NCBI GenBank assembly: GCA_021846145.1
Contig: JAJZCJ010000033.1
Location: 1-17,552 of the forward strand
Direction: 5' to 3'
Source: Bacillota bacterium
GTDB taxonomy: Bacteria; Bacillota; Bacilli; Alicyclobacillales; SLC66
Length of the DNA: 17,552 bases
The notes beneath the pieces are model-generated. The model was not told the DNA's origin. It worked only from the letters and a program-made list of their open reading frames with translations, and made no database searches. A program made the translations under genes and the position numbers. Positions 634-17,234 of the stretch are shown piece by piece. Each line of letters opens with the position of its first letter. The first letter of the stretch is position 1.

Positions 634-891
634 CGTCATCAACCTTCCCTTTTGGTATTTCGTGTTATATTATCTTACATCGTATTGCCTGTTTAAATCA
701 AATATCCCTGTAACCAGCTAGTTATACAGAAAAATATAACGCGATAAGTAATTATATATGACACAATAGGGTTTGTGCTTGAGTAGGGGGCCTAGTGGTG
801 AAGTCACACATTTGTGGTCTAATTCAAGTGGAATTTCTCGTTTCTCTATATCCGCTTTATTGACTGAGGACTAACGCCGAATAACGCAAGA

Positions 892-920
892 GGGATCCCG
901 CGATTGTAATTCGGGGTCCC
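892..920. repeat. Hairpin, 9-bp GC-rich stem with 11-nt loop
   Basis: GGGATCCCG at 892-900 pairs with CGGGGTCCC at 912-920, allowing one G-T wobble, around an 11-nt loop. No T run follows on either strand, so it is not a standard terminator. The -35 box of the downstream promoter (904-909) lies in its loop, so it could be a cruciform or a second binding site upstream of the hicB-like gene. Its role is unknown. Confidence 0.55.
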
Positions 921-932
921 ATACAATATAAT
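904..932 (+). promoter_or_regulatory. Predicted sigma-A promoter of the HicB-Uma2 gene
   Basis: The -35 box TTGTAA (904-909, four of six consensus bases) is separated by exactly 17 bp from a perfect -10 box TATAAT (927-932). The start codon lies about 60 bases downstream. The -10 box is inside the left half of a palindrome (924-948), the usual arrangement for a repressed promoter. Confidence 0.65.
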
Positions 933-948
933 ATCGTATATGATATTG
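924..948. promoter_or_regulatory. Imperfect palindromic operator over the -10 box, probable autoregulatory site
   Basis: The left half CAATAT-A-ATAT (924-934) mirrors the right half ATAT-G-ATATTG (938-948) around CGT. The match is 10 of 11 positions per arm. It covers the -10 box. HicB-type antitoxins commonly repress their own promoter through a DNA-binding C-terminal part (family knowledge), and the downstream protein has such a part, so self-repression is the natural inference. AT-rich sequence makes partial palindromes easier by chance. Confidence 0.5.
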
Positions 949-993
949 CTCGGCGCGAGTCATTGACATCCTCAGCCAAAAGGGGTGGATTTG

Positions 994-1971
994 ATGAAGA
1001 AGGATTTGGATTATTATATGTCTCTACCATATGTGATCATGGTGATTCCTGATCCGCGATCGGGAGGCTATGTTGCAAAGATCAACGAGTTACCCGGATG
1101 CATTACGCAAGCGGAGACGCTACCTGAATTAATGAATATGATTCAAGATGCCAAGCGTTGCTGGTTAGATGGTGCCCTACAGGGTGGCATTGAAATTCCT
1201 GAGTCAACTGATTTAACTGATGCTGAACCCAGCAAATTTCTTTTGCGTTTACCCAAATCACTGCAACGTGATTTGGCTGCCAGAGCAAAATTGGAGGGGG
1301 TTAGTCTTAACCAGTACATGCTATACCAGCTTGCACGTTCAATGGGACTTTATCACAAAGGGGGAAGTATAACCATGCCGGAAAAAAAGGCCTCTGCTGC
1401 AACGGGATATACGTTTGGTCGTTGCCTAGAAGAATTTCCTGACGAACGCTTTGAACTGATCGATGGAACTGTTTTCATGACACCGCCACCATCGTATCGT
1501 CATCAAGATATATCGTCCAATTTGGTTGGAGAACTGTGGTCGTTCTTGCGAAAATCAAAAAAGGATTGTCGGGTCTATCATGCGCCTACGGGTTTGTTTT
1601 TTGAGGATCACGGCAAGGATTTAAAAAAGGAAAAAGGTTATGTTGAACCGGATATTTTTATTACGTGTTCAAACGTGCGTACTGATGGCTTTGTCGTTGG
1701 GGTGCCTCATCTTATCATTGAAATCTTGTCACCGTCAACGAGCAAACATGACAAGGTTGTAAAACTAAACTTATATCAAAAAAACAAGGTTCGTGAATAT
1801 TGGATCATTGATCCCTTGAATGAAATCATTGACGTTTACAAATTACTGGATGAACACTATCAGTTCCCGACCACTTATACAAAAGAAGACTCCCTTGTAT
1901 TCGTGTTGGACAAAGCAGATCAAGACGGTGAAGATGAAACCGTTATTCAGCTACAAACAGTTTTTAGTTGA
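994..1971 (+). CDS. HicB antitoxin-like domain fused to a Uma2-family PD-(D/E)XK nuclease
   Basis: A 325-residue protein in two parts. Residues 1-118 match HicB antitoxins: the HicB fold (YVIMVIPDPRSGGYVAKINELPGC, broken here as YVIMVIPD then GGYVAKINELPGC at 13-36, with the WLDGAL segment near 57-62) and a ribbon-helix-helix-like tail (KFLLRLPKSLQRDLAARA, then GVSLNQYML, 81-110). Residues 128-325 match Uma2/DUF820 endonuclease-like proteins: ERFELIDG (151-158), RHQDIS (169-174), EPD (218-220), HLIIEILSPSTS (239-250), K257 and REYWIIDP (267-274). The D220, E243 and K257 candidates for the PD-(D/E)XK site are present. I chose ATG 994 over GTG 985 because AGGGG at 981-985 lies 8 bases upstream. 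A strong GGGGGA and an ATG at 1375 fall exactly at the domain junction, so a separate 198-residue Uma2 protein may also be made. No hicA is visible nearby. Domain calls are firm; the biological role is unknown. Confidence 0.88.
   Translation: MKKDLDYYMSLPYVIMVIPDPRSGGYVAKINELPGCITQAETLPELMNMIQDAKRCWLDGALQGGIEIPESTDLTDAEPSKFLLRLPKSLQRDLAARAKLEGVSLNQYMLYQLARSMGLYHKGGSITMPEKKASAATGYTFGRCLEEFPDERFELIDGTVFMTPPPSYRHQDISSNLVGELWSFLRKSKKDCRVYHAPTGLFFEDHGKDLKKEKGYVEPDIFITCSNVRTDGFVVGVPHLIIEILSPSTSKHDKVVKLNLYQKNKVREYWIIDPLNEIIDVYKLLDEHYQFPTTYTKEDSLVFVLDKADQDGEDETVIQLQTVFS
1360..1377 (+). promoter_or_regulatory. Internal ribosome binding site and ATG inside the fused gene
   Basis: GGGGGA (1360-1365) lies 9 bases before an in-frame ATG (1375-1377). 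The protein from this ATG would be 198 residues and begin MPEKKASA, the normal length and start style of stand-alone Uma2 proteins. The site is read through as the linker HKGGSIT in the long product. This suggests two products from one frame, or a recent loss of a stop codon between two formerly separate genes. Confidence 0.6.
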
Positions 1972-2049: not shown

Positions 2050-3051
2050 ATGAACAAGCAAACGCTAGGACAAACAGGCCCATTGGTTTCGAGGATGGGA
2101 CTTGGTTGCATGGGAATGTCGGGAATGTATGGCCAGGCAGACCGAAAGGAAAGCATTGCGACTATCCATTCAGCGTTGGAAGCTGGCATCAATCTGCTTG
2201 ACACCGGGGATTTTTACGGAATGGGCCATAATGAATTGCTGATCGCGGAGGCGCTGCGGGAACGCTCCCGCGAGGATGTCGTGATCAGCGTCAAATTTGG
2301 TGGGATGCGCACCCCTACAGGTGTGTTTATTGGGCAGGATTGTCGGCCCGAAGCGGTGAAAAATTTTCTCGCCTATTCATTAACTCGTCTCGGTACCGAT
2401 TACATTGATATCTATCGGCCTGCGCGTGTTGATCAAAATGTGCCCATTGAAGAAACGGTTGGTGCCATTGCGCAAATGGTTCAGGCCGGTTATGTGCGCC
2501 ACATTGGGCTGTCAGAGATGAGCGCAAAAACGCTGCGCCGGGCGCACAAGGTTCATCCGATCACTGATGTGCAAATCGAATATTCGCTGTTTTCCCGCGG
2601 TATCGAGGCGGAAATTCTGCCTGCCGCCCGGGAACTTGGTGTAGGAATTACGGCTTACGGCGTTCTTTCGCGTGGCTTACTGGGATCCAACTGGTCAAAA
2701 GAGAAAGCGTTAAAGGGTGATATTCGCGGCGGGATGCCCCGTTTCCAAGGGGAAAACCTGGAGACTAATCTGAAGCTGATCGATGCGCTAAGGGTGATTG
2801 CACAGGAAAAAGAGGTGACCCTCGCCGAACTTAGCATTGCTTGGGTGCTGGCGCAAGGGGTGGATATTGTGCCGCTGATTGGTGCCAGACGACGTGATCA
2901 ATTCAGTGAGGCGTTGTCTGCGCATGCATTGATCCTCAATGAAGATGATCTGGCGCGCATTGAACAGGCGGTTCCTTCGCAGGCGGTGGCAGGTGACCGG
3001 TATGCGGCGATCCAAATGGCGCACCTTGATAGCGAACGGACAGGACAATAA
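2050..3051 (+). CDS. Aldo/keto reductase (intact, atypical tetrad)
   Basis: A 333-residue NAD(P)H-dependent oxidoreductase of the aldo/keto reductase superfamily, a cytoplasmic (beta/alpha)8 barrel. Visible features are the N-terminal TLGQTGPLVSRMGLGCMGMSG, the LLDTGDFYG motif with D51 and Y56, SVKFGG with K82, DYIDIYRPARVD around 118-128, YVRHIGLSEM, and the cofactor-binding IVPLIGARRRDQF near the C-terminus. The catalytic His normally found in the YxxHRxD segment is replaced (A125 in RPARVD); a subgroup of the family is known to carry this PAR variant. The ATG at 2050 is preceded by GGGAGG at 2037-2042 with 7-base spacing; an upstream GTG/ATG-like extension would read through the ribosome binding site. 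It is followed directly by a damaged second aldo/keto reductase. The substrate is not predictable. Confidence 0.93.
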   Translation: MNKQTLGQTGPLVSRMGLGCMGMSGMYGQADRKESIATIHSALEAGINLLDTGDFYGMGHNELLIAEALRERSREDVVISVKFGGMRTPTGVFIGQDCRPEAVKNFLAYSLTRLGTDYIDIYRPARVDQNVPIEETVGAIAQMVQAGYVRHIGLSEMSAKTLRRAHKVHPITDVQIEYSLFSRGIEAEILPAARELGVGITAYGVLSRGLLGSNWSKEKALKGDIRGGMPRFQGENLETNLKLIDALRVIAQEKEVTLAELSIAWVLAQGVDIVPLIGARRRDQFSEALSAHALILNEDDLARIEQAVPSQAVAGDRYAAIQMAHLDSERTGQ

Positions 3052-3052
3052 A

Positions 3053-3745
3053 TTGGCTTGGCAATTTGGTGGTGAGTGGGGGCGGGATTTTTTCCAGAAC
3101 GAGGCGGATGTCATTCTTGATCGCGCCCACGAAGAAGGCATTAATTTGATTGATACGGCAGAGTGCTACGGCAACCATTTGTCGGAGTCATTTATTGGCG
3201 ATTACCTCTCACGCCGTAACCGTACAGACTGGGTATTGGCCACGAAATTCGGTCACGCGTTTAGTGGTCATCTTGAGCGTGAGCAATTGTGGAAGCCGAA
3301 TGATGTCCTGCGCCAACTGGAAGATTCTCTTCGGGCATTGAAGACGGACTACATTGACCTTTATCAGTTTCATTCCGGTACGGATGAGGTGTTCGATCAG
3401 GACGACCTGTGGACGATGCTGGACAAGCAGGTGCAGTCAGGGAAAATCCGCCATCTTGGCACGTCCATTGGCAGTAACGACAATCTCCATCAAACCGAAG
3501 CGTCCAGTCACATCGGTTCTAAAGCGATTCAGGTGGTGTATAACCGGCTGGATCGCAAGCCGGAGGAGCGGGTTTTCCCGGTTTGCTTGGAACAGAATCT
3601 GGGGGTATTAGCTCGGGTGCCGCTGGCCAGCGGCTATCTGAGCGGGAAATACAAGCCTGGCGCGGTGTTTCCCGCAAACGATGTGCGTAATCGCCATAAT
3701 TCTGATGATACGCCTGAACCTCTAAATTTATCCATGGGGTTCTAA
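3053..3745 (+). pseudogene. Second aldo/keto reductase, truncated at both ends
   Basis: The open frame from TTG 3053 encodes about 230 residues of a different aldo/keto reductase subgroup. It starts abruptly at LAWQFGGEWG, which in full-length relatives follows about 20 residues of N-terminal strand and the GLG segment; these are missing. The tetrad is intact: D34 and Y39 in LIDTAECYG, K65 in ATKFGH, H107 in LYQFHSG. It ends after SGYLSGKYKPGAVFPANDVR; the last codons come from the right end of an IS605-type element, so the final ~70-80 residues of the barrel are lost. The frame begins only two bases past the stop of the preceding reductase, with AGGA at 3042-3045, so it might still be translated by coupling, but the barrel is incomplete and a functional enzyme is unlikely. 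Confidence 0.82.
3716..3742 (-). mobile_element. Right-end hairpin of an IS605-family element
   Basis: GAACCTC (3716-3722) and GGGGTTC (3736-3742) form a short stem around an AT-rich loop that itself contains the palindrome TAAATTTA. On the tnpB strand this lies 8 bases past the tnpB stop codon and ends in GGTTCA, the position and style of subterminal right-end hairpins in IS200/IS605 elements (family knowledge). The aldo/keto reductase frame breaks here, marking the insertion border at about 3714-3716. Confidence 0.5.
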
Positions 3746-3749
3746 AAGC

Positions 3750-4625
3750 CTATACCGTTGCACTCTCGTGGGTTCTCACGTTAGCTTTCACCTTCGCTAC
3801 ACCATCCCACGCCTTATGTTCAGGCAGACTCTCTTTTTCAGACGACCCGCTCTGACTCCGATATGTACCGAAGGAGGTTGGCACTGGCCTTCCACTCGCA
3901 GGTTGGTTTTGCACTCGTCGCCAAGCCGTCCGCAGGAGCGGTTCCGACTCGTAGGCCTTGTCCACTTGGAGCCGATCTTCTTCCACGTGCTTTGCTAGGT
4001 ACGCACTGAACAAGTCCCGTTGCATGACCACACCGCATTCACAATCATGAACACGTTCGGATAACGTTTTCTTGTGCTTCCTTTCACAAATACACGTTTG
4101 TGACAATGCCGTGTGATACGTGCTGAATTCTTCGACCTGCCCGCCAGCACTTTCAGCCTTGCGGGTGAGGATCGATAAAAACGTTTTTGGGGCGCGAATA
4201 CCGATGGAACGGCCAAACATCTTTTGAAACGCTTTGTAGCTCAGTTTTTCTGTTTTAATTTTTGCACCAATGGCAATCACTTCATTCGCCAGTTGACCGT
4301 GCAATGTCTTGCGATGCGCCGCTTCCCGACGATGCAATTCACGCAGTACTGCTTCGGTGTCTCGTTGATGCTGGCTTTTCTTGGTGGGGTGTTTGCCTTT
4401 AATGGCACGCCCCTTTTCATCAAAACAGTCGGGATTGTTCGCCCTTCGTTGCCGGTCTTGCTTGCGTTGGAGCTTGCGAATGCGGCGGTGACCTCGCACA
4501 ACCGCTTCCGCAAACAAGTCTAACTCAGCCTTGGTATCACCTACAATGGCAATCGTAGAAGGCCCGATATCGAGACCGACTGTTTCATTGCCGATGAGTG
4601 TGAGTTCTTGTGTCGTTAAAGGTGC
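3750..4625 (-). pseudogene. tnpB: tnpB of an IS605-family element, 5'-truncated
   Basis: TnpB is the RNA-guided RuvC-type nuclease that accompanies IS200/IS605 elements. The open frame holds 291 codons covering the RuvC part: VGLDIGPSTIAIVG with the first Asp, the arginine-rich helix HRRIRKLQRKQDRQRRANNP, IKTEKLSYKAFQKMFGRSIG with the central Glu, a zinc ribbon (CIC ... CEC) and QRDLFSAYLA with the last Asp. All three catalytic acidic residues are therefore present. The N-terminal bridge and REC-like part, roughly 180 or more residues, is absent: an in-frame TAA lies at 4626-4628, with no ATG after it. A start at TTG 4517 would omit the first catalytic Asp. Upstream on the same strand the unrelated gene 4649-5320 begins 23 bases away, so the break is a deletion border. 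The C-terminal tail (NQPASGRPVPTSFG) resembles relatives from memory. Probably inactive. Confidence 0.85.
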
Positions 4626-4648: not shown

Positions 4649-5320
4649 TCATGCCACCCAATAGTCAATTTCTTGACCGTCTGGGGTGACTAGCTGAACC
4701 ACATTTGGTTCCTTTCTTGTCTTCGGTTGTGATGACGGCACGTCTGCTGTATTGATTGTAAAGACGTTAAGCCCAGTTCTCTGCGGTTTGGCTACGATTA
4801 CGATTTGATTTCCGTATGAGTAGACTCTTTTGACTTCGACTTGCATCACAACAAACATCATTTTATCAAATGCTTTTTTCTCTAACGCAGGAACCTGCTG
4901 CATCTCTTGTGCAATACCCACGTCATGAATGAAGTTGTAATAAATGCCTGCAGTTATGTAAGAAGCGTATGTACGATGAAGAGCATAGTGAATTCTGGTT
5001 TTTGGATTGCTCCAACGTCCTCCAGCGACTGAAGGACTCCAATAAGTTCGATACACTGGTCGTTCCCAGTTCGGAACATGCAACACTGTATCAGAGGGGA
5101 TGTGTTTTCCCTGACGGATTACTTGTAGTGGGGATACCAAGGACGATATAACGTGCTGGGTATAGGGAGGGCGGAAATACTCGGAATCCAGCATGTCCCG
5201 CTGCTGTTGATGAGAAAACACGGGTTCATTCGAAGTCGTCTCAGAAAAAACTGGTTTTAGAAACACACCGAATGAAACCATAATCATCAGGCACATCAAG
5301 AAGATCGGCTTTTTATGCAC
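4649..5320 (-). CDS. Secreted protein of unknown function
   Basis: I do not recognise this 223-residue protein. It starts best at GTG 5320 (reading MHKKP), with GGGGG 8 bases upstream; a TTG at 5335 would place the ribosome binding site inside the gene. Residues 1-25 form a typical signal peptide: KK, a hydrophobic core IFLMCLMIMVSFGVFL, and a plausible signal peptidase I site after PVFS. The mature part has no further membrane segment, is rich in aromatic and charged residues (YFRPPYTQHVIS, NWERPVYRTYWSPS) and ends near TPDGQEIDYWVA. It is expected at the outer cell surface or in the medium. Its 5' end overlaps by 6 bases the head-to-head creatininase pseudogene, and the tnpB relic follows 23 bases downstream, so its neighbourhood has been rearranged. 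Confidence 0.7.
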   Translation of the reverse strand: MHKKPIFLMCLMIMVSFGVFLKPVFSETTSNEPVFSHQQQRDMLDSEYFRPPYTQHVISSLVSPLQVIRQGKHIPSDTVLHVPNWERPVYRTYWSPSVAGGRWSNPKTRIHYALHRTYASYITAGIYYNFIHDVGIAQEMQQVPALEKKAFDKMMFVVMQVEVKRVYSYGNQIVIVAKPQRTGLNVFTINTADVPSSQPKTRKEPNVVQLVTPDGQEIDYWVA

Positions 5321-5982
5321 ATCAGATACCCCCAAAAAACAACGTTTGAGGGTAGTGTGTCCAGTTTATTGGATGACTCGTCTCTTTCTTTAAGCGGCAT
5401 AGATACTGCAGTCATTCCAATTGGTGCAACTGAACAATTTGGTCCTTATCTTCCAATGCATTTGGATACCTTAATTGCCGAACTATATGCTACTGAGTAT
5501 GGCAAAGCTTTAAATGCTTATGTTTTACCAGTGCTACCTTTTAACACTTCAGAGGAGCACACGGCATTGAAAGGTACTGTAACAGTGAGCCCCCAAATTA
5601 TTAGTGCCTTTGTAGAGGAGATCATTGTAAACCTGAGGCGACAAGGTTTTAAAAAGTTTCTCATTGTGTCTGGTCATGGTGGTTCGTATTGGATTGGATC
5701 ATTCATTAAACACATTAACTACGTATATCAGGACATTGTGGTCATTCACCCTCACCATCAACCGAACGCTTGGGATGATGCCGTTAAAGCGGCAGGGTTT
5801 GAAAGAAGAAATGAAATTCATGGTGGATTGATTGGGGTTATTTCGTTTCAGGTCAATATTCAACTGAGGAGTTGGCGGAAAAGGGTAGGAAATTGTGGAT
5901 GACTCTAATCCATAAAAATTGTGATGGTCTAAAGGAACACATTGAAGAAGCGTATTCGATGAAGACTGGGCAACATTCATAG
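5315..5982 (+). pseudogene. Creatininase-family amidohydrolase, frameshifted with internal deletion
   Basis: Similar to the creatininase/MftE family of metal-dependent amidases: VIPIGATEQFGPYLPMHLDTLIAE near residues 34-57, LPVLPFNTSEEHTALKGTVTVSP, and FKKFLIVSGHGGSYW. The first frame reads to EIHGG (about residue 171) and then turns to nonsense, stopping at 5902. The C-terminus continues one frame back as IDWGYFVSGQYSTEELAEKGRK and ends at 5980-5982. The joined product would be about 220 residues; the segment between the EIHGG and the SGQYSTEELAEKG parts, which in relatives holds the ETSLML-like block, is missing. The metal-binding EQHG of active members reads EQFG here, so a ligand His is lost as well. 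The start ATG 5315 has only a weak ribosome binding site (AAGAAG) and overlaps the divergent gene. Clearly a decayed gene. Confidence 0.8.
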
Positions 5983-6296: not shown

Positions 6297-7085
6297 ATGA
6301 ATCAGGCTCAAAACGATGAAATCCGTCAAAACGTGCGCAATCGGTACCAACAAATTGCTGAGCAAGATGGAGGCTTTGAATCTAATAGCGGATGCTGCTG
6401 CGGATCGTCTACTGGTTATGATGAAGAATCGGCAAAAATGGGATATTCTGCAGATGAATTAGCTACGGTTCCAGAAGGAGCGAATTTAGGACTTGGTTGC
6501 GGTAATCCACAAGCGATTGCAGCTCTGAAACCAGGTGAAACGGTTTTGGATCTTGGCAGCGGCGGTGGATTTGACTGCTTCCTTGCTGCAAGGCAAGTTG
6601 GTGACAGTGGGTACGTGATTGGAGTCGATATGACACCCGCAATGATCAGTCGCGCACGAAAAAACGCTGTCACGGGTCAATTTTCCAATACTGAATTTCG
6701 TTTAGGGGAAATTGAGCATTTACCTGTTGGCGATAATTCCGTCGATGTTTTGATTTCGAACTGCGTGATCAATTTATCACCCGATAAACCACAGGTTCTG
6801 AGTGAGGCATTCCGTGTCTTGAAGCCGGGCGGTCGGCTGGCTATTTCGGATATCGTAACAACAGCGGAATTACCGGAGCAAATTAAGCAAGACGTGAACG
6901 CTCTAGCAGGGTGCATTTCCGGAGCCTCCAGCATTTTGCAACTTCAAACTATGTTGATGCAAGCTGGTTTCGAGAAGATTGAAATTGAACCTAAAGACGA
7001 ATCACGGTACTTCATCAAAGATTGGATTCCAGGAACGAACATTGACGACTACATTGTGTCTGCAGTAATTAAGGCAGTAAAATAG
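6297..7085 (+). CDS. arsM: Arsenite S-adenosylmethionine methyltransferase ArsM
   Basis: Methylates As(III) using S-adenosylmethionine, producing methylated and volatile arsenicals; cytoplasmic. The 262-residue protein has the SAM-binding motif VLDLGSGGGFDCF (83-95) and the acidic IGVDMTPAMI (108-117). The three cysteines that bind arsenic in ArsM enzymes are present: C68 in LGLGCGNP, C156 in ISNCVINL, and C206 in LAGCISGA. An additional CCC run at 33-35 lies in the N-terminal segment, as in many bacterial ArsM proteins. The start ATG 6297 has GAGGAGG at 6282-6288, 8 bases upstream; frame extension further upstream would cross the promoter. The arsR-like gene follows 64 bases later in the same direction, so the two form a small arsenic-response unit. 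No arsenite pump or arsenate reductase is visible in the window. Confidence 0.95.
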   Translation: MNQAQNDEIRQNVRNRYQQIAEQDGGFESNSGCCCGSSTGYDEESAKMGYSADELATVPEGANLGLGCGNPQAIAALKPGETVLDLGSGGGFDCFLAARQVGDSGYVIGVDMTPAMISRARKNAVTGQFSNTEFRLGEIEHLPVGDNSVDVLISNCVINLSPDKPQVLSEAFRVLKPGGRLAISDIVTTAELPEQIKQDVNALAGCISGASSILQLQTMLMQAGFEKIEIEPKDESRYFIKDWIPGTNIDDYIVSAVIKAVK

Positions 7086-7149
7086 CTGACGGAGTCTTCC
7101 GAGTCGTGTTATCGGCTCTCGTTAAGTATTGTGAAGTTAGGTGATTTTC

Positions 7150-7509
7150 ATGGATATGGCAAAGGTGTTCAAAGCTCTCGGGCATAAATTTCGTTTTCAG
7201 ATCTTCATGGCGCTGCTTCAAGGCAATATACATTCTTGCTGTGGAGAACTTCGCTCGTATGAGCAAGGTTGTTGTGTTACAGACATAACGGGCATGTTTG
7301 ATATTTCGCAATCCACCGTATCGCACCACTTAGGAATTCTGGTCGATGCCGGCATTGTAAAAATGGAAAAGCGGGGTCTTTGGAGTGTATACCTTATCTC
7401 TACCGAAACCATCCAGGAACTTTATAATGCCATTGGTGGGTGGTTATCGTCGAGTTGTGAAAATCCCCAATCCATCGAAAATTTCTCTTGCGGAATAAAT
7501 CTAGATTAA
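7150..7509 (+). CDS. arsR: ArsR/SmtB-family metalloregulator with paired cysteines
   Basis: A 119-residue winged-helix repressor expected to bind the operator at 6211-6240 and release it on binding As(III) or a related metalloid. Recognition-helix region: DISQSTVSHHLGILVDAGIVKMEKRG (51-76, with the STVSHHLGIL core). Classical ArsR proteins bind arsenic through ELCVCDL; here that position reads GCCVTDI (C41, C42), and further pairs or single cysteines occur at C30-C31, C103 and C114. The metal site is therefore not the textbook one. The start ATG 7150 has AGGTGA at 7138-7143; a GTG at 7141 would overlap this site. A weak hairpin (7544-7572) follows the gene but no T-rich terminator is seen. 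The family is firm; the exact ligand is inferred from the neighbouring arsM. Confidence 0.9.
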   Translation: MDMAKVFKALGHKFRFQIFMALLQGNIHSCCGELRSYEQGCCVTDITGMFDISQSTVSHHLGILVDAGIVKMEKRGLWSVYLISTETIQELYNAIGGWLSSSCENPQSIENFSCGINLD

Positions 7510-15257: not shown

Positions 15258-17234
15258 TTGATTTCATCGATAGCACTCGATATCTCGATATTGTTTGTAA
15301 CGATTAGTATGTTGGTGGGACTACTTGTCGCCATTGCAAAACGATTCACCTATTTGGGGCATGTCATCGGAATGTTTGCATCACTCGGTTTCGTGGTGTC
15401 CGGGGTCACGGAATTGCTAGCGCCGTCTTCATCTGCACTGATTTTGCAAGGGTCTTTTGCTTTTACTTCATTAAATTTTCGCATCAATGCGATGGCAGGA
15501 TTGTTTGTATTGCTCATCGGTATCGTGGGTTTATTTGTCGCGGTATATGGAATCGGGTATGTAAGAGAGTACAAAGAACGCAAGTCAGTGTCACTGCTAG
15601 TCTCAGGCGTGCTAATATTTCTTGCGACGATGATGGCTGTGGTGCTGGCGGGAAATGTTTTTACCTTTTTAGTGTCATGGGAATCGATGTCCATCGTATC
15701 CTTTTTGTTAGTGATCTATGAACACGAGCAACGCGAAGTGCAAAACGCTGGCTTTATTTATGTGGTGATGACGCATATCGGAACCGTTTTTATCACGATT
15801 TCCTTTTTGATGCTCGCCCATTATTCAGGGAGTTTCACTTTTCACGACATGAGTTCAGTGCATATGCCAACAGCCATGAAGTCGCTCGTCTTTTTGTCCG
15901 CGTTCATTGGATTTGGGACGAAGGCGGGGTTAGTGCCTTTTCACATCTGGTTGCCGCGCGCTCACCCTGTTGCGCCTAGTCATGTCTCCGCACTGATGTC
16001 TGGTGTCATGTTGAAAATGGCGATGTATGGATTCCTTTTGGTTGTTTTTCGATTGTTATTAAGTGGGCCGCTTTGGTGGGGTATCGTAGTGGCGTGCGTA
16101 GGGGCGATATCAGCGCTGCTAGGTATTTTGCATGCGCTAGGACAACGCGATCAAAAGCGAATGCTTGCTTATAGTAGCATTGAAAACATGGGCATCATTT
16201 TCATGGGACTTGGCATTAGCTTAATTCTTTTCGCTCTGCACGATGATACACTAGCCGCGTTTGCGCTGTTGGCTTCCTTAGTTCACGCCTTCAATCACGC
16301 CTTATTTAAAAGTTTGCTGTTTTTGGGAGCAGGTGCCGTACTCTCTACCACGCATACAAAAAATATGGATCTTCTCGGTGGCGTGATGAAAAAAATGCCG
16401 TGGACGGCGATATTTACATTAGTTGGTGCGTTGTCTATTGCTGCGATGCCGCCATTCAATGGATTTATCGGGGAATGGATGTTGTTCCAGTCCGCTTTCG
16501 GGCTGGCAACTACAGCGCCTTCTTCCTGGATTAATCTATTTGCCGTATTGATCATCGGGGCGCTGACGATGACTGGGGCGTTGGTCGCGATGGCATTTGT
16601 CCGTTCATTTGGCACCACTTTTTTGGCATTGCCTAGAAGCGAGAACGCACAACATGCGCACGAGGTGACGGTATCGATGCGTATTGGCATGGCTGGATTA
16701 GCGGTGTTATGTCTACTGACGGGGATTTTTTCGATGAATTGGGTGTGGTTGTTAAGTAGATCAGTGCAAGTAGTGACGGGAATTCGTTTGAATATGCATG
16801 CCAATTGGCATCTATCCATGTTCGCGGTGCTGATTACCGCGGCAATTGCACTGATGATTCTCTGGTTGGTTGTTCGCAAAGTGGGGAGACGCACATCGAT
16901 CGTGCGGGAAGAGACTTGGGCTTGTGGGAGTACCTTGACACCTTTAATGACCTACACGGCAAGTGGCTATAGTAAGCCGATTCGCGTCGCCTTTCAGAAA
17001 GTGCTACTCCCTTCGCGCACGCTGAATCGCATGGAAGGAAGCGTGTATTTTCCCTCTAAATACGTGTATACCAGTAAAATATATTCGTTTGCTGAAACCT
17101 ACTTATATCAGCCCGTCTTTCATTCGGTAGTGCGTATCGCACGCATCATACGGGGTATTCAAAATGGACAAGTTCAAAGTTATTTGGCGTATTTGTTTAT
17201 CACACTGATCGTGGTACTGCTATTAGTGAAGTGA
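15258..17234 (+). CDS. hyfB: Hydrogenase-4-type membrane subunit B (HyfB/NuoL-like proton channel)
   Basis: A 658-residue antiporter-like membrane subunit of complex-I-related assemblies. It belongs to the NuoL/NuoM/MrpA superfamily and is expected to carry proton or sodium translocation driven by an attached hydrogenase-type module. Conserved charged residues in membrane helices are present: E142 in FLVSWESMSIVSF, K222 in GFGTKAGLVPFHIWLPRAH (219-236), K253 in SGVMLKMAMYG, and HAFNHALFKSLLFLGAG with its Lys and His. The C-terminal EETWACGS region points to the HyfB/HycC group rather than NuoL. About 14-16 hydrophobic helices can be counted. The TTG start 15258 has GAGGG at 15244-15248. The hyfC-like gene follows 12 bases later. 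Whether a NiFe hydrogenase or another electron carrier is attached cannot be told because the operon continues outside the window. Confidence 0.9.
   Translation: MISSIALDISILFVTISMLVGLLVAIAKRFTYLGHVIGMFASLGFVVSGVTELLAPSSSALILQGSFAFTSLNFRINAMAGLFVLLIGIVGLFVAVYGIGYVREYKERKSVSLLVSGVLIFLATMMAVVLAGNVFTFLVSWESMSIVSFLLVIYEHEQREVQNAGFIYVVMTHIGTVFITISFLMLAHYSGSFTFHDMSSVHMPTAMKSLVFLSAFIGFGTKAGLVPFHIWLPRAHPVAPSHVSALMSGVMLKMAMYGFLLVVFRLLLSGPLWWGIVVACVGAISALLGILHALGQRDQKRMLAYSSIENMGIIFMGLGISLILFALHDDTLAAFALLASLVHAFNHALFKSLLFLGAGAVLSTTHTKNMDLLGGVMKKMPWTAIFTLVGALSIAAMPPFNGFIGEWMLFQSAFGLATTAPSSWINLFAVLIIGALTMTGALVAMAFVRSFGTTFLALPRSENAQHAHEVTVSMRIGMAGLAVLCLLTGIFSMNWVWLLSRSVQVVTGIRLNMHANWHLSMFAVLITAAIALMILWLVVRKVGRRTSIVREETWACGSTLTPLMTYTASGYSKPIRVAFQKVLLPSRTLNRMEGSVYFPSKYVYTSKIYSFAETYLYQPVFHSVVRIARIIRGIQNGQVQSYLAYLFITLIVVLLLVK

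Follow-up and report, generated by a model that had tools for sequence, protein, structure and literature searches.

What is an antitoxin doing at the front of a nuclease? In the window (that is, the whole 17,552-nucleotide stretch of DNA analysed here) a single frame of 325 aa at 994-1971, with no stop, runs from a HicB part (a partial RNase-H fold followed by a ribbon-helix-helix, RHH) into a complete Uma2 domain. Is this a protein with a use, a toxin and its antitoxin packed into one gene, or the debris of a rearrangement that happened to stay open?

One frame and its joint

The initial annotation proposed an in-frame HicB-Uma2 fusion, and this is borne out: the frame is open, and three Pfam domains score above their curated cut-offs, HicB_lk_antitox at residues 13-76 (E 8.6e-7; residues are counted from 994), HicB at 81-111 (E 3.6e-7) and Uma2 at 145-301 (E 2.1e-31; 109.2 bits vs a cut-off of 27). 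No NCBIfam model reached its own cut-off against the 325-aa frame; Rfam gave no match. There is also an in-frame GTG at 985. The start at 994 is the equivalent of the hicB start in relatives, and its Shine-Dalgarno (SD) energy is -11.3 kcal/mol, vs +0.7 ahead of 985.

HicB homology is already over at nt ~1348, while Uma2 begins at residue 128 (ATG 1375); the joint holds GGGGGA, a spacer of nine nucleotides and that ATG. Its proposed strength as a ribosome-binding site stands: only five of 359 plus-strand ATGs, counting 1375 itself and 994, have an SD energy at least as good. The internal ATG is most simply taken as the ancestral uma2 start because two free Uma2 proteins, P0001 (192 aa, 69% identical to the window Uma2 and the nearest free one found) and P0002 (190 aa, 59%), have the corresponding methionine as their first residue, as had been surmised; an SD also precedes the P0002 gene, a weaker one (-6.2 kcal/mol). 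A long and a short product from one gene, also suggested at the outset, are thereby supported as a possibility. The linker cannot be credited with similarity to the lost HicB tail: at the protein level 72-135 of 1000 shuffles reached the score against four tails, and for the 72 nt that follow 1348 the count was 318 of 1000 DNA shuffles. The open joint is weak evidence of selection, because an arbitrary junction is computed to be in frame and open ~22% of the time.

(A technical note on structure, the prediction of which had been proposed as a check: an AlphaFold2 model built on 43 aligned sequences has a mean pLDDT of 84 and a pTM of 0.61, with pLDDT 80-94 over the HicB fold, 48-78 over the RHH, 82-97 over Uma2 and below 50 at the joint, residues 116-132. 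The domains are separate, which suits tethered, independent units, and the model is as compatible with an inhibitory contact between them as with its absence. Searched against known structures, Uma2 resembles 9y1l and 6okh, with a TM score by target of 0.86-0.88; the HicB part has weak matches to HicB, the best with E 3e-3 and a TM by target of 0.43.)

Origin at a decaying hicAB locus

The fusion very probably arose by DNA rearrangement. The window HicB is 89% identical over 125 aa to that of Alicyclobacillus mengziensis (locus L001), where a complete hicA lies upstream and its stop overlaps the hicB start. By blastn, window 881-957 aligns to the promoter region of L001 (5673-5748, 73%, E 3e-4) and of a second relative, L002 (83%, E 1e-16), and window 955-1348 to the end of hicA together with hicB in L001 (5962-6355, 89%). 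From ~1349 onward uma2, with its own ribosome-binding site, takes the place of the last 18 HicB codons and their stop (Table 1). The early remark that no hicA is visible is right as regards a gene, and overlooked a remnant of its last 11 codons. As read from these alignments, the ancestral partner of HicB at this locus is HicA, with Uma2 not the partner.

Table 1. Features of the fusion locus in the window
Feature	Position	Strand	Evidence
Retained hicAB promoter, TTGTAA, 17 nt, TATAAT	904..932	+	Promoter scan 10/12; the block precedes hicA in relatives
Putative HicB operator, AATATC-N6-GATATT (a perfect inverted repeat over the -10 box)	930..947	+	Shuffles; nine loci
Deletion point, ~216 nt of hicA gone	957..958	.	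blastn vs L001, L002
Remains of hicA: 11 terminal codons (VIDILSQKGWI) plus stop, which overlaps the hicB start	959..994	+	Comparison with relatives
hicB lacking the final 18 codons; ribbon-helix-helix after a partial RNase-H fold	994..1348	+	Pfam PF15919, PF05534
Probable former uma2 leader, now read as linker	1349..1374	+	HicB homology ends at 1348; Shine-Dalgarno 1360-1365, -10.9 kcal/mol
uma2 from its native ATG; PD-EXX-K nuclease by prediction	1375..1971	+	Pfam PF05685, free Uma2 relatives, PADLOC, fold matches

Six peptide patterns run against a genome collection picked out three contigs, each from Alicyclobacillaceae and each with its match in the HicB half. The close relatives come to eight loci in six genomes, five of these loci having been added from genomes of the order, and with the window they make nine for comparison. 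In all eight relatives HicB is a free protein of 136 aa that has its own stop and whose tail reads DEMAATVTG or a variant of this. The toxin gene has fared otherwise: hicA can be read throughout in four of the nine loci (L001, L051, L052 and L053) and interrupted or truncated in five (the window, L002, L003, L037 and L038), assembly error being possible. The lesions differ among the broken loci while hicB stays open, its frame persisting in 9/9, with the tail missing in the window. HicB thus outlives its toxin.

On the window branch of hicB, 10.25 synonymous and 7.25 nonsynonymous changes are counted against 78:276 sites (binomial test on 7/17, p 0.001, using only the window, L001 and L002). 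The L001 and L002 branches carry 1.75 and 4.25 nonsynonymous changes; the window branch is accordingly less constrained than these, yet still below neutral. On these counts hicB appears constrained on the window branch, yet the constraint may predate the fusion.

(A note on the surroundings: a TnpB-like fragment with a Cas12f1-like TNB domain lies on the minus strand at 3753-4517, adjoining the truncated aldo/keto reductase gene at 2939-3742; a creatininase-family gene at 5315-5902 ends early, covering 13-164 of a 238-position profile; and 6297-7506 holds a SAM methyltransferase and an ArsR-type regulator, a pair that we take to resemble an arsenic methylation locus. The 658-aa protein encoded at 15258-17234 is 77% identical to its nearest counterpart in 59 genomes of the Alicyclobacillus order, so the window belongs to a relative outside that set.)

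The inherited promoter

With just 26 nt of its own leader, uma2 probably relies on the hicAB promoter. The scan that found this promoter returned 6 sites in the region vs 3.8 expected and is weak alone. The 18-nt inverted repeat over its -10 box occurs once in the window and in none of 200 shuffles, and its core, ATATC-N6-GATAT, recurs near the -10 box upstream of hicB in eight of the nine loci, L038 being the exception. Binding of B. pseudomallei HicB to a palindrome that overlaps the predicted -10 sequence is recounted in a review (PMC11594946). One sequence within hicB, at 1221-1234, resembles a terminator, which is no more than chance would give (1.1 expected).

The Uma2 half

The putative active-site residues H170, D220 (within EPD), E243 and K257 are in place, as first suggested, by reference to the motif of the putative COG4636 active site in PMC551604. 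The spacing from E to K is 14; it is 16 in all3650 (E111, K127), unlike the window, while for Tt1808, which has EXR with R118 and K130, a spacing of 14, the same as the window, may be deduced from that paper. The Uma2/COG4636 family is described as one of predicted nucleases in PMC2701414 and PMC551604; it is large, its role is unproven, and the former calls Uma2 a likely solo toxin with which known antitoxins are rarely associated. The synonymous difference between the window uma2 and the P0002 gene is saturated (pS 0.76, pN 0.25).

In the PADLOC collection of defence proteins, both established and candidate, the Uma2 part matches PDC-S03 (E 2.6e-46), where PDC presumably stands for phage defence candidate; no literature on PDC-S03 was found. 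If the chimera has a role, it is likely that of Uma2 generally, itself unproven: candidate phage defence or solo toxin.

Is the architecture found elsewhere?

A search for other HicB-Uma2 fusions, called for at the outset, found none in proteins, viruses, phages or the 59 genomes of the order. No protein with both domains is present in the best 120 of 578 matches, nor among nine HicB relatives of 179-569 aa drawn from 134 candidates; a Uma2 profile search, which scored the 7,999 candidates with most shared words, has Uma2 alone in its Pfam column for the best 120 of 7,961 matches. (These protein searches rest on shared 5-residue words, which a distant fusion may escape.) Viral contigs gave two pattern matches, neither a confirmed relative, and 32 phage records match, none covering >80% of the query. 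When the halves were searched apart on plasmids, 33 records had Uma2 and 15 had HicB. No match in the 59 genomes spans both halves; one (G047 C28) covers residues 104-283 with two stops inside. No description of a HicB-Uma2 fusion was recognised among the papers that literature searches brought up. Five proteins of 388-432 aa (P0129-P0133) have only Uma2 in the Pfam column at ~1.2-1.4 times the single-domain score and are probably tandem Uma2.

Are hicB and uma2 at least neighbours elsewhere? The 59 genomes hold 85 Uma2 and 86 HicB_lk_antitox matches which, judged by eye from the two match lists, fall within 1 kb of each other only at G048 C27. One genome of the order has a hicA-hicB-uma2 row on one strand (L025, 749-2070). 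Separate adjacent genes, a search for which had been proposed, exist in one place, and the hicB there is distant (28% identity).

A DNA-binding domain ahead of Uma2, on the other hand, is a recurrent layout. Uma2 is present in at least 138 of 299 genomes of a phylum sample, and many Bacillota Uma2 proteins have an N-terminal helix-turn-helix (HTH): a MerR/excisionase-type HTH peptide precedes Uma2 in 25 of 29 frames (L061, L062, L064-L067, L069, L071-L074, L076-L089) from 30 Bacillota loci, a sample selected for long Uma2 frames that yields no rate. Four of five such long frames run on Pfam passed the HTH_17 cut-off. The long Bacillota frames are either HTH-Uma2 or upstream read-through; no HicB was seen in them (Pfam on five).

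A working chimera or an accident?

The reading preferred here, at odds slightly better than even (about 0.55), is that the locus specifies a functional, autorepressed chimera, young and born in a decaying hicAB module, in which the retained HicB would repress uma2 and long and short forms would coexist. The sequence shows the first two of its steps, and the others are proposed: 1) hicA was deleted and the HicB tail swapped for a uma2 that kept a ribosome-binding site and its start; 2) the hicAB promoter, the candidate operator and the HicB DNA-binding domain survived the rearrangement; 3) the old promoter would yield a single mRNA; 4) the start at 994 would yield HicB-Uma2, dimerising via its ribbon-helix-helix; 5) this protein would bind the candidate operator over the -10 box and so repress its own gene; 6) the start at 1375 would yield some free Uma2. 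Uma2 would end up as an autorepressed, DNA-tethered predicted nuclease, the HTH-Uma2 layout of Bacillota having been reached independently.

The main rival is a silent accident, and it deserves serious weight: a rearrangement in frame by luck, after which the cell would make chiefly the Uma2 that starts at 1375, or nothing of use, with HicB a passenger on its way to being lost. The odds of an open joint are not long, hicA is decaying at most of the loci compared, the fusion is a singleton among the sequences searched, so that the joined form itself has no conservation behind it, the window branch is the less constrained, and two nearby genes (the aldo/keto reductase and the creatininase) look truncated. 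Set against this are the intactness of both halves, of the promoter, of the inverted repeat and of both SD sites, and a hicB that still changes at below the neutral rate on the window branch. A strong internal start could also make the short form dominant and the fusion incidental.

A further suggestion, put forward tentatively, is that an antitoxin freed of its toxin became the half of a nuclease that regulates it and targets it to DNA, with a long self-repressing and a short free form, convergent with HTH-Uma2. If true, it would be reuse of an antitoxin after toxin decay, caught in the act.

Could the gene instead be a self-contained toxin-antitoxin, its HicB part inhibiting the Uma2 part in cis or in trans? 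That is quite unlikely, though precedents can be cited: fused toxin-antitoxin proteins exist (HicAB classes 11-13, CapRel; PMC10865869), Uma2 carries the solo-toxin label already mentioned, and a table for Synechocystis sets HicB-type antitoxins beside PIN3 and DUF4258 toxins (PMC4963859), which tells against tying HicB to HicA alone. Yet HicA was the partner at this locus, HicA and HicB are said to form strictly unique pairs (PMC2701414), the modelled joint is of low confidence, and a single hicB-uma2 adjacency in 59 genomes gives no signal of partnership; the earlier idea that HicB is the antitoxin of Uma2 thus found no positive support. Least probable of all is the recent loss of a stop codon, or a sequencing error, between coupled hicB and uma2 genes, the alternative first offered: the hicA-hicB-uma2 row in one genome of the order lends it some colour, but its hicB is a distant one, and the missing HicB tail contradicts it, since no point change removes 18 codons and puts in their place a sequence that matches them only at shuffle level.

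The locus records a stage, traceable in the sequence, in the history of a toxin-antitoxin system: the toxin has gone, the antitoxin and a candidate operator remain, and another effector has been joined on in frame. Should the preferred reading of a functional chimera be right, a retained DNA-binding antitoxin can pass its regulation on to a candidate defence nuclease, and the chimera offers a way to test what an N-terminal DNA-binding domain contributes to Uma2.

Comparison with known systems

With hicAB modules whose HicB bears an RHH (A. mengziensis and kin) the window shares the promoter region, the inverted repeat, the hicB start and a HicB that combines a partial RNase-H fold with an RHH (by Pfam and weak structural matches); it differs in having, beside hicB, only the 11 terminal codons of hicA, and Uma2 in place of the HicB tail. 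With the free Uma2 proteins (COG4636, DUF820) it shares the complete domain, by score and by PD-EXX-K residues, and a native start with its SD, and adds the upstream, in-frame HicB-RHH part.

Two kinds of HicB fusion come near it. Fused HicA-HicB proteins (class 11; P0064; Slr1999 of Synechocystis, whose fusion is described in PMC4963859) are likewise one-gene hic products whose HicB part is DNA-binding (by RHH or HTH in class 11), but their partner is the HicA that the window has lost. P0121, from one contig of 1180 bases, likewise continues from HicB-RHH into a second, unrelated domain, there a nucleotidyltransferase. In layout the window resembles the HTH_17-Uma2 proteins of Bacillota (L062, L064, L067, L069 and others), with an N-terminal DNA-binding domain, a linker and a C-terminal Uma2; theirs is a MerR/excisionase-type HTH, that of the window a HicB-RHH, and the origins of the two are unrelated.
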